Shown: positions 8,153 to 17,601 of the stretch, piece after piece
How positions within the stretch are numbered: the stretch's first letter is position 1
Layout: the number at the start of each line of letters is the position of its first letter
Source: Puniceicoccaceae bacterium Marseille-Q1082
Lineage (GTDB): Bacteria > Verrucomicrobiota > Verrucomicrobiia > Opitutales > Intestinicryptomonadaceae
Length of the DNA stretch: 64,000 bases
Assembly: GCA_904424815.1 (NCBI GenBank)
Contig: CAJGBI010000001.1
Location: forward strand, 1,383,671 to 1,447,670
Direction of reading: 5' to 3'
Position numbers and translations under genes: made by a program
Notes under the pieces: model-generated
Seen by the model: the letters and a program-made list of their open reading frames with translations, nothing else
What the model was told of the DNA's origin: nothing
Databases searched by the model: none

Positions 8153-9643
8153 ATGAAAACACAAACATGCAACCGCGTCTTCTTTGACGCCCCCCTCCCC
8201 GAACCTAACGTAAATATAGCCAAATGCTTACGATTAGGGATTTTCGCGGCATCGCTCGCGGCGATTCAGACGGTTTGCGCGCAGTATACCGATTTGTACA
8301 ACTCCAACTCCTCGGCGGATTTCAGCATAAACGACGGTTCCAGCTGGCGCCTCGGTTCCTATGACGGGCAGGTTTACGCGGGTTCGATAAATTCCACAAA
8401 CAACAACCTGCACATACAGGTGGTCGGGAACAACTCAAACATAGGGGAGTTCTCCGAAGCCGTCACCGCGCACGACATCGACTATACCATAGGCTCCGTC
8501 GAGGGCTCCTCGTGGGGAAGAACGCTCTACTTTAACGGCGGCGCGTACGCCACGGGAGATATGGCTTTTGAAAATACGTCCGATTCGGGCTTCGTCATTC
8601 AATTGCGCGGAGGAAGCAGGACATTCAGGATAAGCGGGGATTTCAACGTCGGCGTAAATTCCAACGCAAGCATGATAATACACTCCGCCCAATCCGGCTG
8701 GCAGGTTGGGGGAGACTTCAACATAGGCACGCGCGGGAAATTCTATATATCGGGTTCGTCCACGTCGTCTTTCAGCGTGTCGGGAGTTTTGAACATCGGC
8801 GGAACGACCCTCGACCTGGCCAAGCACGACTCCGGAGGCTCCGGCGAGAAAAACGAGCTCATAGGCGGGCTTTCCGGCAGCGGCAGGCTGCAAATAGGCA
8901 ATACTGCCACATCGCACAATTTGGCGTTCACCAATCAGGGCGTTTCGGAATTTTCCGGCACATACGCGACGCAAAACGGAGTTGGAGAAAGGCTCAACAT
9001 AACAATGAACGCCAATTCGGACTCCGGCAGACAGACGCTGCGCTTCAACACCGTCGCCGACTACACGGACGAGCGCGGCTTCTCCGCCGCCGACCTCGGG
9101 AACGTTTCGGTGCAGTGGGGCGAGCTGAATTTGGGAATGCACTCGGGAATGGGCGCGGGCGCCCTCTCGATTTCAGGCGCCAATTCGACATTCAGCGTCG
9201 CGGGCGTGGACGGAAACGCCGAAGGCGGAACCGCGCGGTTCGCGTCGCTCGACTGGCAGGGCGGGGCGATAAGGGTCGACTTCACTGAGCTCGCCGCCGA
9301 CAGGATAGACGTGGCTGGGGAACTCAACGTCTCGTCTCCGGCGGACTGCGCGCTGGTTCTGAACGTGTCCGCAATAGACCTCGGGCTGTGGCTCGAAGCG
9401 TCGAAAGCCTCGTACCTCGACTACACCATACTGTCGTTCGACGCCGAATCCTCGAACCTGACGCTCGAGATGGCGAATGAAATGCTTTCGCACGATGTCG
9501 AAATAAACGCCCAAATCCTCGAAGGCGACTTCGCAAACGGCCTGTTAACCGTGAGGCTGAGCATGGTTCCCGAACCCGCAACCGTGGCCGCAATCCTCGG
9601 CGCAATCGCCCTGGCTCTCGCAATCCGCCGCAAGGCGCGGTAA
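8153..9643 (+). CDS. PEP-CTERM surface/exported protein (paralogue 1), beta-strand-rich
   Basis: A 496-residue exported protein. It has a long n-region, then the hydrophobic segment LGIFAASLAAIQTVCA and probable cleavage before QYTDLY. The mature part is Ser/Gly/Asn-rich with repeated short beta-strand motifs (GGDFNIG, LNIGG, GSGRLQIG), resembling autotransporter-type passenger repeats. The tail has VPEPATVAAI, a hydrophobic helix and RRKAR, the PEP-CTERM signal that an exosortase would cleave. No exosortase gene lies in the window. It is a paralogue of the genes at 12418 and 16198, sharing GELNLGMHSGM-type and SGANSTFSVAG-type stretches. It lies between two terminators and is probably monocistronic. 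Confidence 0.88.
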   Translation: MKTQTCNRVFFDAPLPEPNVNIAKCLRLGIFAASLAAIQTVCAQYTDLYNSNSSADFSINDGSSWRLGSYDGQVYAGSINSTNNNLHIQVVGNNSNIGEFSEAVTAHDIDYTIGSVEGSSWGRTLYFNGGAYATGDMAFENTSDSGFVIQLRGGSRTFRISGDFNVGVNSNASMIIHSAQSGWQVGGDFNIGTRGKFYISGSSTSSFSVSGVLNIGGTTLDLAKHDSGGSGEKNELIGGLSGSGRLQIGNTATSHNLAFTNQGVSEFSGTYATQNGVGERLNITMNANSDSGRQTLRFNTVADYTDERGFSAADLGNVSVQWGELNLGMHSGMGAGALSISGANSTFSVAGVDGNAEGGTARFASLDWQGGAIRVDFTELAADRIDVAGELNVSSPADCALVLNVSAIDLGLWLEASKASYLDYTILSFDAESSNLTLEMANEMLSHDVEINAQILEGDFANGLLTVRLSMVPEPATVAAILGAIALALAIRRKAR

Positions 9644-12417: not shown

Positions 12418-13890
12418 ATGAGTCAATATTTGTACGCAATACGCAAAATCGCCGCTCTGCCGGCATTGTTAGCCTCCTGCGCCCTTTCCCATGCCGCGCA
12501 GGATTTGTATTTTAACGAGAGTTTGAACTCTTCCGATCCCACCCGCTTTTTGGGACAGAGCTCCAACTGGTTCACCAATGCGGAAAGAACCGAACAGTTT
12601 ACGGGAACCCTCGGCTCAGACTACAACGGCATAGTGAATGCCGAAAGCGTAGTCTACGGCACCGTAAGTAGCGCAATCGGACTCAACCTCAACTCGCTAA
12701 CCTACAACTTTTCCAAGGCCGGAATGAACAACGGGTATATGGTTTCGTTCGGATTCGGCGGCGTGGCAAATCTCGCGGAAGACTTTAATTTGAACGTCAC
12801 CCTGGCGCACGTAGGCTCCGGTCCCCTCGAAGAAACAATCAGAATGTACGGCGACAACACATTCAACATTGGCGGGGATTTCAATATTGATTACAGCAGA
12901 AACGGCAGCGGCAGGTATCTCGTCGTCAACATAATAACCGATGCCTCGGCGGCCCACACGTCAAACACTTTCCGCGTCGCGGGCGACATGAATATAATTT
13001 CCCGCCAAGCGGACGCCAGAGTGAGGTTCAATACGAACATAACCCAGTTCACAGTGGACGGCATTGTCGACATGTCGGTTCTCCAGTGGACGATTGGCAC
13101 CCCCGGCGAGGGATACGCTTCCACCGCTTCCGTCGGCGGGCTGACCACAGCAAGCGGTTCCGACGGTTGGCTGAGAACAGCGGGCGGCGCGGGAATGAGC
13201 ACTCTGATATTCACGAATTCCACCCGCCAGGACGCCTCCGTGACGTATGGGTATGTAGATACGGAATCCATGCTCAATATCACGATGAAGGCTTCCAACG
13301 CCCAAAGCGGCTACCAGATTTTGAGGATCCGCTCCGGAGCGTACGACGCCACCGACGCAAATCTGGGAGACGTGATTATCGACACCGGACGCCTCGACCT
13401 GGGGATGCACTCCGACATGAAGGGCGCGCGGCTCTCGCTCTCCGGAACCGAGGCGATGTTCAGCGCGACGGCAATCGACAGCGGGAATATAGGCACCGTC
13501 ACGTTCGACGAGGGCGAATGGTACGCCGGCAAAATCGCCATAGACATAGAAGGCGAACTCGCCTACGACAAAATAGTCTTCAACGGCAGGTTCAACAAGA
13601 CCGGCAGCAACCACGACATGGGCTTTGAATTTGTATTCGACGCATACACTATGAGGGATTTGATTTCCGCAAACAACGGGGAATTTATCCTTGAAGACGT
13701 GATAACCTACGAAACCGGCAGCTCGATGGCGGGCACGGTGTTTGAGGGAAACACAAGCGGAATCCAGTGGGAGGCGGTCTTTGGCGACACTTCGCTATCA
13801 GTCTCCTTCACCGTCCCCGAACCTGCGGCTGTTGCCGCCGTCCTCGGCGCGGCTGCCCTCGCTTTTGCCGCATACCGCAGGAGGAAGTAG
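12418..13890 (+). CDS. PEP-CTERM surface/exported protein (paralogue 2)
   Basis: A 490-residue exported protein with signal segment IAALPALLASCALSHA and likely cleavage before AQDLYFN. The mature part is rich in Ser, Gly, Asn and Thr with beta-type repeats. The C-terminal third holds GRLDLGMHSDM, LSLSGTEAMFSATA, and the EGEWYAGKIAIDIEGELAYD motif shared with the 16198 gene. The tail is VPEPAAVAAVLG, a hydrophobic helix and YRRRK, a PEP-CTERM sorting signal. Its last ~380 coding bases and the downstream hairpin are almost identical to those of the 16198 gene, whereas the N-terminal halves differ widely, which suggests tail exchange. Anchoring depends on an exosortase encoded elsewhere. Confidence 0.88.
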   Translation: MSQYLYAIRKIAALPALLASCALSHAAQDLYFNESLNSSDPTRFLGQSSNWFTNAERTEQFTGTLGSDYNGIVNAESVVYGTVSSAIGLNLNSLTYNFSKAGMNNGYMVSFGFGGVANLAEDFNLNVTLAHVGSGPLEETIRMYGDNTFNIGGDFNIDYSRNGSGRYLVVNIITDASAAHTSNTFRVAGDMNIISRQADARVRFNTNITQFTVDGIVDMSVLQWTIGTPGEGYASTASVGGLTTASGSDGWLRTAGGAGMSTLIFTNSTRQDASVTYGYVDTESMLNITMKASNAQSGYQILRIRSGAYDATDANLGDVIIDTGRLDLGMHSDMKGARLSLSGTEAMFSATAIDSGNIGTVTFDEGEWYAGKIAIDIEGELAYDKIVFNGRFNKTGSNHDMGFEFVFDAYTMRDLISANNGEFILEDVITYETGSSMAGTVFEGNTSGIQWEAVFGDTSLSVSFTVPEPAAVAAVLGAAALAFAAYRRRK

Positions 13891-15704: not shown

Positions 15705-15986
15705 ATGCCGGAAACCGAGACAGTCAGGGTATTATCAGTTCAGAACAAGATGGGCATACACGCCCGTCCCGCGGCTATGATTGTGCGCATTTCCAACAAA
15801 TATCCGTCCACAGAACTCTGGGTGGAAAAGGACGGAGAGGAAGTCAACGGCAAGAGCATAATGAGCCTCATGATGCTCGCGGCGGGCAAGGGTTCCGAAC
15901 TCAAATTTATGGCGCAAGGCGAAGACGCCCCGTCAATGCTCGACGAAATCGAAGACCTCTTCAACCGCAAATTCGACGAAGAATAG
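15705..15986 (+). CDS. ptsH: HPr-family phosphocarrier protein
   Basis: A 93-residue cytoplasmic phosphocarrier. The active-site His lies in MGIHARPAAMIV near residue 20 and the regulatory Ser site is in GKSIMSLMMLAAGKGSE near residue 53. The length fits HPr with a short acidic C-terminal tail. AGAGG upstream of ATG 15705 supports the start. There is no enzyme I or HPr kinase gene next to it, so it may work in regulation (as in bacteria with HprK-type control) rather than in sugar uptake; this is inference. Confidence 0.93.
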   Translation: MPETETVRVLSVQNKMGIHARPAAMIVRISNKYPSTELWVEKDGEEVNGKSIMSLMMLAAGKGSELKFMAQGEDAPSMLDEIEDLFNRKFDEE

Positions 15987-16077
15987 GCGCGGAACGGCTC
16001 TAAAAGCCTTGCGCCCAAAGGCGCGGCGGAGCGCGGAGTTTAAGAGAATGCTCGGGCGGCGGCAAACGCGCCGCGTC

Positions 16078-16092
16078 AGTTTACAGTAAACT
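16078..16092. promoter_or_regulatory. Palindrome AGTTTACAGTAAACT upstream of PEP-CTERM paralogue 3
   Basis: Fifteen-base palindrome 60 bases before the ATG at 16152. It is the most symmetric member of the TTWACWGTWAA set. Confidence 0.35.
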
Positions 16093-16178
16093 AAAAAATT
16101 TCGCTTTTTATCTTTCGCAAAGGCGCGAAATTTTTATATATGGGGAGCGTTATGAAACCGATGATTATGAAATTGTTA

Positions 16179-16189
16179 CCCCCCCCCCC
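16179..16189 (+). repeat. Poly-C tract (11 C) at the 5' end of PEP-CTERM paralogue 3
   Basis: Eleven consecutive C between an ATG with a good ribosome binding site (GGGGAG, ATG 16152) and the main reading frame. With 11 C the ATG frame stops after about 19 codons; with 10 or 13 C it would join the main frame. It is therefore a candidate contingency locus, or a homopolymer sequencing error. Confidence 0.8.
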
Positions 16190-16197
16190 GTTATATA

Positions 16198-17601
16198 TTG
16201 AATTGCAATAACTTATTGCGATTTGCCGCCGTGCTTTCGGCGTTGCCGTTTTTCTGGAGTTCCGCATTCGCGGCGCAGGATTTATACTTCAATACAGCCG
16301 ACTCCCCCGATTTCAACAGGTATTTGAACGACAGTTCAAACTGGTTTACCGACGAGGGGCGCACGCAACAGTTTGAGGGAACTCTTGGCCCAGACTACAA
16401 CGGCATCGTCACGGGCATGACAAACGTGTCGGTGGCGGGCGGTTCTACTTTGAATTTGAATTCCCTCACAATCGACCGCGAAAACATTTCCGCGAGGGAA
16501 AGCTTTATGTTGGCCGTGGGAGGGCGCATAACGCTCGCCGAAAATCTGATTTTCAACATGAACCTGACCGGCGGAACTGGGAATGTAAGGCAAGACACAG
16601 TCCTCTACTCCGATATCGACCTCGGGGGAAACATGATTGTTAATTATTCAAGGGAAAGCGGGGTAAGTTCGTACTGCACTTTCGCCATAGTCTCAGAATC
16701 GTCCGGTCGCCAGCTCCACATAGGAGGAGATTTCTCCGTAAACCTCGGAACCGCCGACACCACCGCGCTGCGCTTTGCCGCAAACGCGAACATCATGGTA
16801 GACGGAATAATGCATATGGACAACTTCGTATGGCAAAATTCAAGCCAGTATAACAGCCATATGCTCGGCGGAATGTCCGGAAGCGGAATGATAGTCGTTT
16901 ACGACGCCGGATACACTTCCATAAATTTGACAAATTCGACCGTCCAGGAAACTTCCCTCACATTCGGAACGACGACCGAAAATTCAAAACTCGATATCTC
17001 CATGAACGGTTCCGCGTCCGGACGGCAGACCATAAGATTCCGCTCCGGAACGTGGGAGGGGACGGACAGCAACATAAACGACGTGACAGTCGGCTCCGGC
17101 AGGCTCGACATCGGAATGCGCACCGGCATGACGGGCAACAGGCTTTCGCTATCCGGAACCGAAGCCGTTTTCAGCGCGACGGCAAGCTACAGCGGAGAGA
17201 TCGGAACGGTCACATTCAACGAGGGCGAATGGTACGCCGGCAAAATCGCCATAGACATAGAAGGCGAACTCGCCTACGACAAGATAGCATTCAACGGCAG
17301 GTTCGAAAAAACAGGCAGCGACCGCGACATGGGTTTTGAATTTGTATTCGACGCATACACTATGAGGGAACTCATCTCCGCGGGCGACGGGGAATTTATC
17401 CTTGAAGACGTGATAACCTACGAAACCGGCAGCTCAATGGCGGGCACGGTGTTTGAGGGAAACACAAGCGGAATACAGTGGGAGGCGGTCTTTGGCGACA
17501 CTTCGCTATCAGTCACTTTCACCGTCCCCGAACCTGCGGCTGTTGCCGCCGTCCTCGGCGCGGCTGCCCTCGCTTTTGCAGCATACCGCAGGAGGAAGTA
17601 G
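16198..17601 (+). CDS. PEP-CTERM surface/exported protein (paralogue 3), possibly phase-variable
   Basis: A 467-residue frame beginning at TTG 16198 that codes for LLRFAAVLSALPFFWSSAFA (signal peptide) and then AQDLYFNTADSP, a beta-repeat body and the tail VPEPAAVAAVLG...YRRRK. TTG 16198 has no ribosome binding site. The better start is ATG 16152, preceded by GGGGAG, but the 11-C tract at 16179 puts it out of frame; removing one C gives a single protein of about 482 residues with an ordinary signal peptide. As written the gene would be off or weakly expressed. The last 380 coding bases are near-identical to the 12418 gene. Exact start is uncertain. Confidence 0.82.
   Translation: MNCNNLLRFAAVLSALPFFWSSAFAAQDLYFNTADSPDFNRYLNDSSNWFTDEGRTQQFEGTLGPDYNGIVTGMTNVSVAGGSTLNLNSLTIDRENISARESFMLAVGGRITLAENLIFNMNLTGGTGNVRQDTVLYSDIDLGGNMIVNYSRESGVSSYCTFAIVSESSGRQLHIGGDFSVNLGTADTTALRFAANANIMVDGIMHMDNFVWQNSSQYNSHMLGGMSGSGMIVVYDAGYTSINLTNSTVQETSLTFGTTTENSKLDISMNGSASGRQTIRFRSGTWEGTDSNINDVTVGSGRLDIGMRTGMTGNRLSLSGTEAVFSATASYSGEIGTVTFNEGEWYAGKIAIDIEGELAYDKIAFNGRFEKTGSDRDMGFEFVFDAYTMRELISAGDGEFILEDVITYETGSSMAGTVFEGNTSGIQWEAVFGDTSLSVTFTVPEPAAVAAVLGAAALAFAAYRRRK

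Follow-up and report, generated by a model that had tools for sequence, protein, structure and literature searches.

A poly-C tract near the start of a verrucomicrobial PEP-CTERM gene as a probable slipped-strand switch

Among the Neisseria genes listed as phase-variable are pilC, with a run of 9-20 G, and nalP, with a run of 9-13 C, and in both of them the repeat is genic (PMC5953494). In the meningococcal porA gene a poly-G run is situated between the -35 and -10 elements of the promoter, and the loss or gain of a single base alters transcription (PMC3899988). The Akkermansia genome paper noted homopolymers and suggested mononucleotide phase variation, and listed 21 PEP-CTERM proteins separately from these homopolymers (PMC3048395). 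The G9 tract of the Akkermansia muciniphila gene Amuc_1413 behaves as phase-variable, with a change in 87-91% of the reads and with alleles of 8, 9 and 10 G among genomes; the main text of the paper concerned contains no occurrence of PEP-CTERM (PMC13055324). In addition, PEP-CTERM genes of gut communities are enriched near phase-variable invertons (PMC11892184), and poly-A and poly-T homopolymers at the 5' ends of genes have been described as a general phenomenon (PMC2831843).

The preliminary description of the gene analysed here knew of no established case of such variation for PEP-CTERM proteins. This holds for homopolymers, as the open-access literature searched yielded no description of PEP-CTERM genes being switched by homopolymers, but it is too broad otherwise, since invertons near PEP-CTERM genes (PMC11892184) and the verrucomicrobial G9 tract of Amuc_1413 (PMC13055324) have both been published. 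The mechanism is well known, whereas its aim at a PEP-CTERM surface system appears to be new.

The window, i.e. the whole stretch of DNA that was analysed, comprises 64,000 nucleotides (G000:C1:1383671-1447670; positions given without a contig refer to it) of genome G000, which has 2.7 Mb and is assembled into three contigs. The beginning of the gene, on the plus strand, was found base for base as it had been noted: an ATG at 16152 is preceded by GGGGAG and is separated by 24 nt from a run of eleven C (16179-16189). The early closure of the ATG frame was likewise confirmed, as the assembled sequence (16152-16211) reads MKPMIMKLLPPPPLYIELQ and then TAA, i.e. 19 codons before the stop, and recomputation showed again that one C fewer or two C more joins this frame to the long PEP-CTERM frame. 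The latter (16198-17601, plus strand) extends over 467 codons from a TTG at 16198 to the stop at 17599-17601, has a signal-peptide-like start and ends in a PEP-CTERM sorting signal (residues 443-467, VPEPAAVAAVLGAAALAFAAYRRRK; 17524-17598, plus strand), which consists of a PEP motif, a hydrophobic segment and a basic tail and scores 17.1 bits against the NCBIfam model PEP_CTERM (TIGR02595), the cut-off being 16. The N-terminal signal peptide was read by eye from the sequence and the alignment, and the tract lies within what was judged by eye to be its n-region. A homopolymer in the 5' part of a frame with out-of-frame stops close by is the arrangement of a slipped-strand switch.

We consider it likely that the window gene is a contingency locus, one of several in the genus, in which a tract in the signal-peptide region switches a PEP-CTERM protein on and off. 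Translation would begin at ATG 16152 and would reach the C tract a few codons into the region coding for the signal peptide. Replication slippage would gain or lose single Cs, so that the cells of a clone would come to differ, both the slippage rate and the mixed populations being presumed here. In the ON state, which is one of the three frames, Pro-Pro-Pro would be followed by the signal peptide and then by the whole PEP-CTERM protein, which would presumably be expressed; in the other two frames a stop would be met within about 20 codons, and the assembled state would be such an OFF state. The benefit might be an altered surface facing the host, phage or neighbours. Slipped-strand variation, as it had been proposed beforehand, is retained as the best explanation for a tract that gates the PEP-CTERM frame, on the strength of a second gated paralog, of a paralog that reads in frame through a short tract and of PEP-CTERM genes in sister species that are gated or have poly-G promoters, but not on the strength of the ribosome-binding site, which had been part of the original argument.

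The tract is a real, non-random feature of the genome. G000 contains 22 C/G runs of at least 8 and six of at least 10; five runs are of 11 or more, as compared to about 0.7 to 1.5 expected for a 2.7-Mb genome from Markov models of orders 1-4 that were trained on the window and in which C and G were taken together, and the longest run is 16, a length for which these models give an expected count below 0.002. Besides the window tract, the six comprise a C11 in the second gated PEP-CTERM paralog (C1:154848-154858), a run that is G16 on the plus strand and forms a promoter spacer ahead of a PEP-CTERM ORF (C1:1486989-1487004), a C11 whose first base lies 71 nt ahead of the ATG of a family-8 glycosyltransferase (C1:1545837-1545847), a G11 at a point where two ORFs meet (C2:221407-221417), which we take to resemble chemotaxis receptors, and a sixth run at C2:390731-390740. 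Two of the six start at most 30 nt past the ATG of PEP-CTERM paralogs, and both are out of frame as assembled. Under uniform placement the probability that two of six tracts fall into the first 60 nt of the 63 PEP-CTERM genes (profile matches over the cut-off, fragments among them) is about 3e-5, and that of three of six falling between -120 and +60 of these genes is about 1.5e-6, the spans having been picked post hoc in both cases; for the first 60 nt of all genes, whose total we estimate at about 2300, the value for two of six is 0.03.

The second gated gene, C1:153316-154874 on the minus strand, codes for a PEP-CTERM paralog that is 34% identical to the window gene. It consists of an ATG, 13 nt and a C11, with the frame shut after 14 codons as assembled, and of a main frame of 509 codons. 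Between the upstream stop and a point past the signal-peptide region this main frame lacks any ATG, GTG or TTG, and the route through the tract is therefore its sole evident start. The nearest paralog of this gene, C1:99694-101271, shows 67% identity in 495 aligned columns. The two have the ATG in common and can also be aligned upstream of it, but the paralog carries only six Cs, which are read in frame via ACC CCC CAT. This read-through in the short-tract paralog is the strongest support for a true start via the tract, and the comparison of the two sequences suggests that the tract of C1:153316-154874 arose by lengthening of a short run that was in frame. A third relative, C2:768630-770222, starts with MKTSKTPPPES and has mixed proline codons without any homopolymer.

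A like arrangement has been kept, or has evolved again, in related genes both within this genome and in sister species. Across 19 genomes of the family 74 C/G runs of at least 10 were listed and examined, and six were counted as start tracts; 15 more fit a promoter-spacer pattern (nine in G002, three in G013 and single ones in G000, G004 and G012), and the remaining tracts were not scored as switches. Outside G000 there are three more PEP-CTERM genes with start tracts, in two sister species. One gene of G004 (contig C26) has MKKESCF-C23, out of frame, ahead of a PEP-CTERM ORF over the cut-off, and the other (contig C1) has MNLTKVT-C16, which is in frame, with a PEP-CTERM signal over the cut-off and an ATG of its own downstream. 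The gene of G013 (contig C87) has MKKITFLTNLIIL-G11, with the run out of frame and within the signal peptide, and an IPEPA tail recognised by eye. The remaining start tract, MKLS-C15 in G017 (contig C270), is found out of frame ahead of an acyltransferase (PF01757). The window protein had no homologs at E<=1e-30 in the 13 other genomes of the genus and no relatives in contig searches with the protein or with a seven-member alignment, and the search for conspecific tract alleles gave no match in viral contigs for the window gene and none for the G004 gene, which was searched likewise.

The bare pattern of a poly-C close to an ATG is no proof of switching, since the motif ATGAA...C10 yielded 54 matches over 372 genomes of the order and 37 with the reversed control, which is a weak enrichment. 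The tract leads into an ORF of at least 300 codons in five of eight cases inside the family as compared to three of 25 outside it, the latter being the tracts examined from 45 matches. In a genome of another family, G128:C3:289921 and G128:C12:130175 share an identical 28-base start-plus-C10; one of them was read, and no long ORF follows it.

The other explanation that survives best, although we regard it as rather improbable, is an error of assembly or sequencing, i.e. that the true tract is one base off and fixed and that the gene is simply on. Homopolymers are the usual site of consensus errors, assembled lengths are error-prone, and five of the six start-tract genes of the family, including both of those in G000, are out of frame as assembled. 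However, random phase would by itself leave roughly two thirds of the copies out of frame, the arrangement is common to two G000 genes and to the genomes of three relatives, and even a fixed in-frame tract of such length would be slippery.

Slightly less probable is a start at TTG 16198, or reinitiation past the 19-codon ORF, with the tract as a neutral feature of the leader. A plausible signal peptide can be read from this TTG, similar in length to that of the tract-free paralog at 12418-13890 (plus strand, 57% identical to the window gene, ATG start), and starts without a Shine-Dalgarno sequence are normal in G000. The preliminary description had argued for the ATG from the presence of GGGGAG there and the lack of such a site at the TTG. 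This contrast carries no weight, because G000 makes hardly any use of Shine-Dalgarno sites: the core is present at 6 of 43 window ORFs of at least 200 aa (some of which are not real genes) as compared to 10% of random 15-mers, and at 2 of 21 readable PEP-CTERM starts (23 were listed, two of them being left out as too near the end of a stretch), the window gene being among the two.

Support for the ATG comes instead from the shared 5' control region. The palindrome AGTTTACAGTAAACT (16078-16092, plus strand), predicted to be a probable regulator-binding site, has only three exact copies in the genome, which lie ahead of both poly-C genes and of a gene remnant at C1:95029. Its centre is 66.5 nt from the ATG in the window gene, 65.5 nt in C1:153316-154874 and 66.5 nt in the remnant, and a variant of it is centred 65.5 nt ahead of the ATG in the short-tract paralog C1:99694-101271. 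As the distance is conserved in four homologous 5' regions (65.5-66.5 nt), ATG 16152 is the better supported start. Moreover, C1:153316-154874 has no start corresponding to TTG 16198, and the remnant carries TTA in its place. Just ahead of the start, TATATAT (16135-16141, plus strand) was recognised by eye as a possible -10 element, and TATATA recurs at the matching position ahead of the starts of the paralogs; a promoter scan gave no sigma-70 consensus at 15950-16260. We infer from these regions that the poly-C genes are under a common regulator and that their mRNAs are nearly leaderless.

The window gene could also be a recently inactivated paralog, broken at the tract and fixed in the off state within a partly decaying family, which we think improbable. 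Decayed relatives do exist, namely a C-terminal fragment at C1:1180586 and the remnant at C1:95029. The tract region of this remnant is of equal length but interrupted by four substitutions in twelve bases, and its ATG frame is likewise shut after 19 codons, for which reason the OFF state may be old, a point that tells somewhat against the switch. On the other hand, the main frame of the window gene is stop-free over its 467 codons, the second gated gene is intact too with 509 codons, and in the lineage of the latter a short run that was read in frame appears to have lengthened into the tract. The values of dN/dS are 0.25-0.41 for the window gene against the paralog at 12418 and 0.29 for C1:153316-154874 against its paralog C1:99694-101271, all of them being rough because the synonymous sites are near saturation. 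Slippage of RNA polymerase or of ribosomes on the C tract, by which some full protein would be made in every cell and the tract would be a leaky attenuator instead of a switch, is equally improbable as the explanation. Long homopolymers can slip during transcription, and in a tract of this length DNA slippage might occur alongside it.

Some further observations were made on the paralogs and the remnant. In the remnant, the 5' region of the window gene is kept almost unchanged over about 200 nt, and a large deletion fuses it to a PEP-CTERM tail. When 12418-13890 and 16198-17601 are compared in blocks of 30 codons, DNA identity is 79-97% in the last third and 44-60% before it, the value of 0.49 in the final short block being merely due to its being half filled; the high identity in the last third suggests gene conversion between these neighbours, which probably took place. 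The neighbourhood contains a third PEP-CTERM paralog (8153-9643, plus strand), 32% identical over the matched part and tract-free. An AlphaFold model of the three window paralogs has an all-beta core and a mean pLDDT of 57, and Foldseek returned no match in the PDB at E <= 0.001, the best being autotransporter passengers at 0.13 and 0.25, so that no fold is claimed. A profile search of solved structures returned one match only, at chance level (E 0.97).

In addition to the start tracts, of which the slipped-strand switch of the window gene would be an example, the family contains a second class of tract in the form of poly-G promoter spacers. The genome of one species, G002, has 29 promoters, a family spread over the genome, in which TTGACA is followed after 8-10 nt by 8-10 consecutive G and then by a TA-rich -10; the reversed control gave 0. 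The G run thus sits between the -35 and -10 hexamers, as in porA-type promoters, with spacers of 17-19 nt (17 nt in 2, 18 in 12 and 19 in 15). As two of the 29 are located at contig ends, 27 genes are readable; in 25 of these a PEP-CTERM tail was identified by motif rather than by HMM, and the remaining two are large ORFs with signal-peptide-like starts. The narrow range of G-run lengths in G002 could reflect a fixed promoter motif. The end of G002:C26 and the start of G002:C15 are identical over 103+14+27 nt (before the promoter, from the promoter up to the tract, and after the tract) and differ only as G10 vs G9, as would be expected in an assembly if length alleles coexisted, but sequencing slippage could have the same effect.

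The other 18 genomes of the family together gave 14 poly-G promoter matches as compared to 9 in the control. One in G012 lies ahead of an ORF with a PEP-CTERM tail; three in G013 and one in G004 are such promoters by sequence, with no complete PEP-CTERM gene in view. In G000 the G16 run described above is the spacer of TTGACT-18 nt-TAAATT ahead of a PEP-CTERM ORF; this ORF has an in-frame TAG in its signal-peptide region. A G9 run at C1:1313551, also ahead of a PEP-CTERM gene, was not counted as a switch as it sits outside the promoter spacer. Over the order, at least 91 of the 372 genomes have a poly-G promoter match, and none of the 10 complete ORFs downstream of 22 loci outside the family has a PEP-CTERM tail (three further ORFs ran off the stretch, and nine loci were without an ORF). 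Among the matches listed for relatives in the order, G220 has 9 vs 1 in the control, G172 6 vs 0 and G083 14 vs 10.

A third level may be the sorting machinery. Genome G000 contains two exosortase genes (PF09721, over the cut-off) besides its 63 PEP-CTERM matches. Exosortase systems have up to dozens of substrates per genome, the function of which is mostly unknown. One of the two exosortase genes, C1:1114747-1115661 on the minus strand, has an in-frame run of nine G that occupies codons 17-19 (MPNISNTNPQPEESPSGGGWLEYLAW). Slippage in this run would close the sorting enzyme and could switch the sorting machinery itself. Tentatively, and with somewhat more doubt than confidence, we suggest that the PEP-CTERM repertoire of the genus is diversified by slippage at three levels, i.e. 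at start tracts, at the promoter spacers of 25 genes in one species and at the exosortase G9. If this is true, each cell of a clone would show its own combination of PEP-CTERM proteins, and homopolymer phase variation would no longer be confined to single genes but would take in an entire sorted-surface system. PEP-CTERM substrates that are switched stochastically would behave as contingency loci, which would point to a role in host, phage or neighbour recognition.

Compared with the known systems, the window gene resembles pilC and nalP of Neisseria in being surface-related and having a C/G run of about 9-20 within its frame (PMC5953494). It differs from them in that the proteins are unrelated, that a PEP-CTERM protein is targeted and that the tract codes for prolines in the n-region of the signal peptide. 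Like Amuc_1413 it is a surface-related gene of a verrucomicrobial species with a frameshift at a homopolymer, but Amuc_1413 is an exopolysaccharide gene with its tract at about codon 55 (PMC13055324). The run in the exosortase C1:1114747-1115661 is a G9, as is the slipping Akkermansia tract (PMC13055324). The invertons near PEP-CTERM genes act by DNA inversion, unlike the slipped-strand homopolymer change proposed here (PMC11892184). Finally, the poly-G promoter spacers have the anatomy of porA (PMC3899988), but unlike in porA this anatomy is shared by all 29 of the G002 promoters, with PEP-CTERM tails in 25 of the 27 readable genes behind them.
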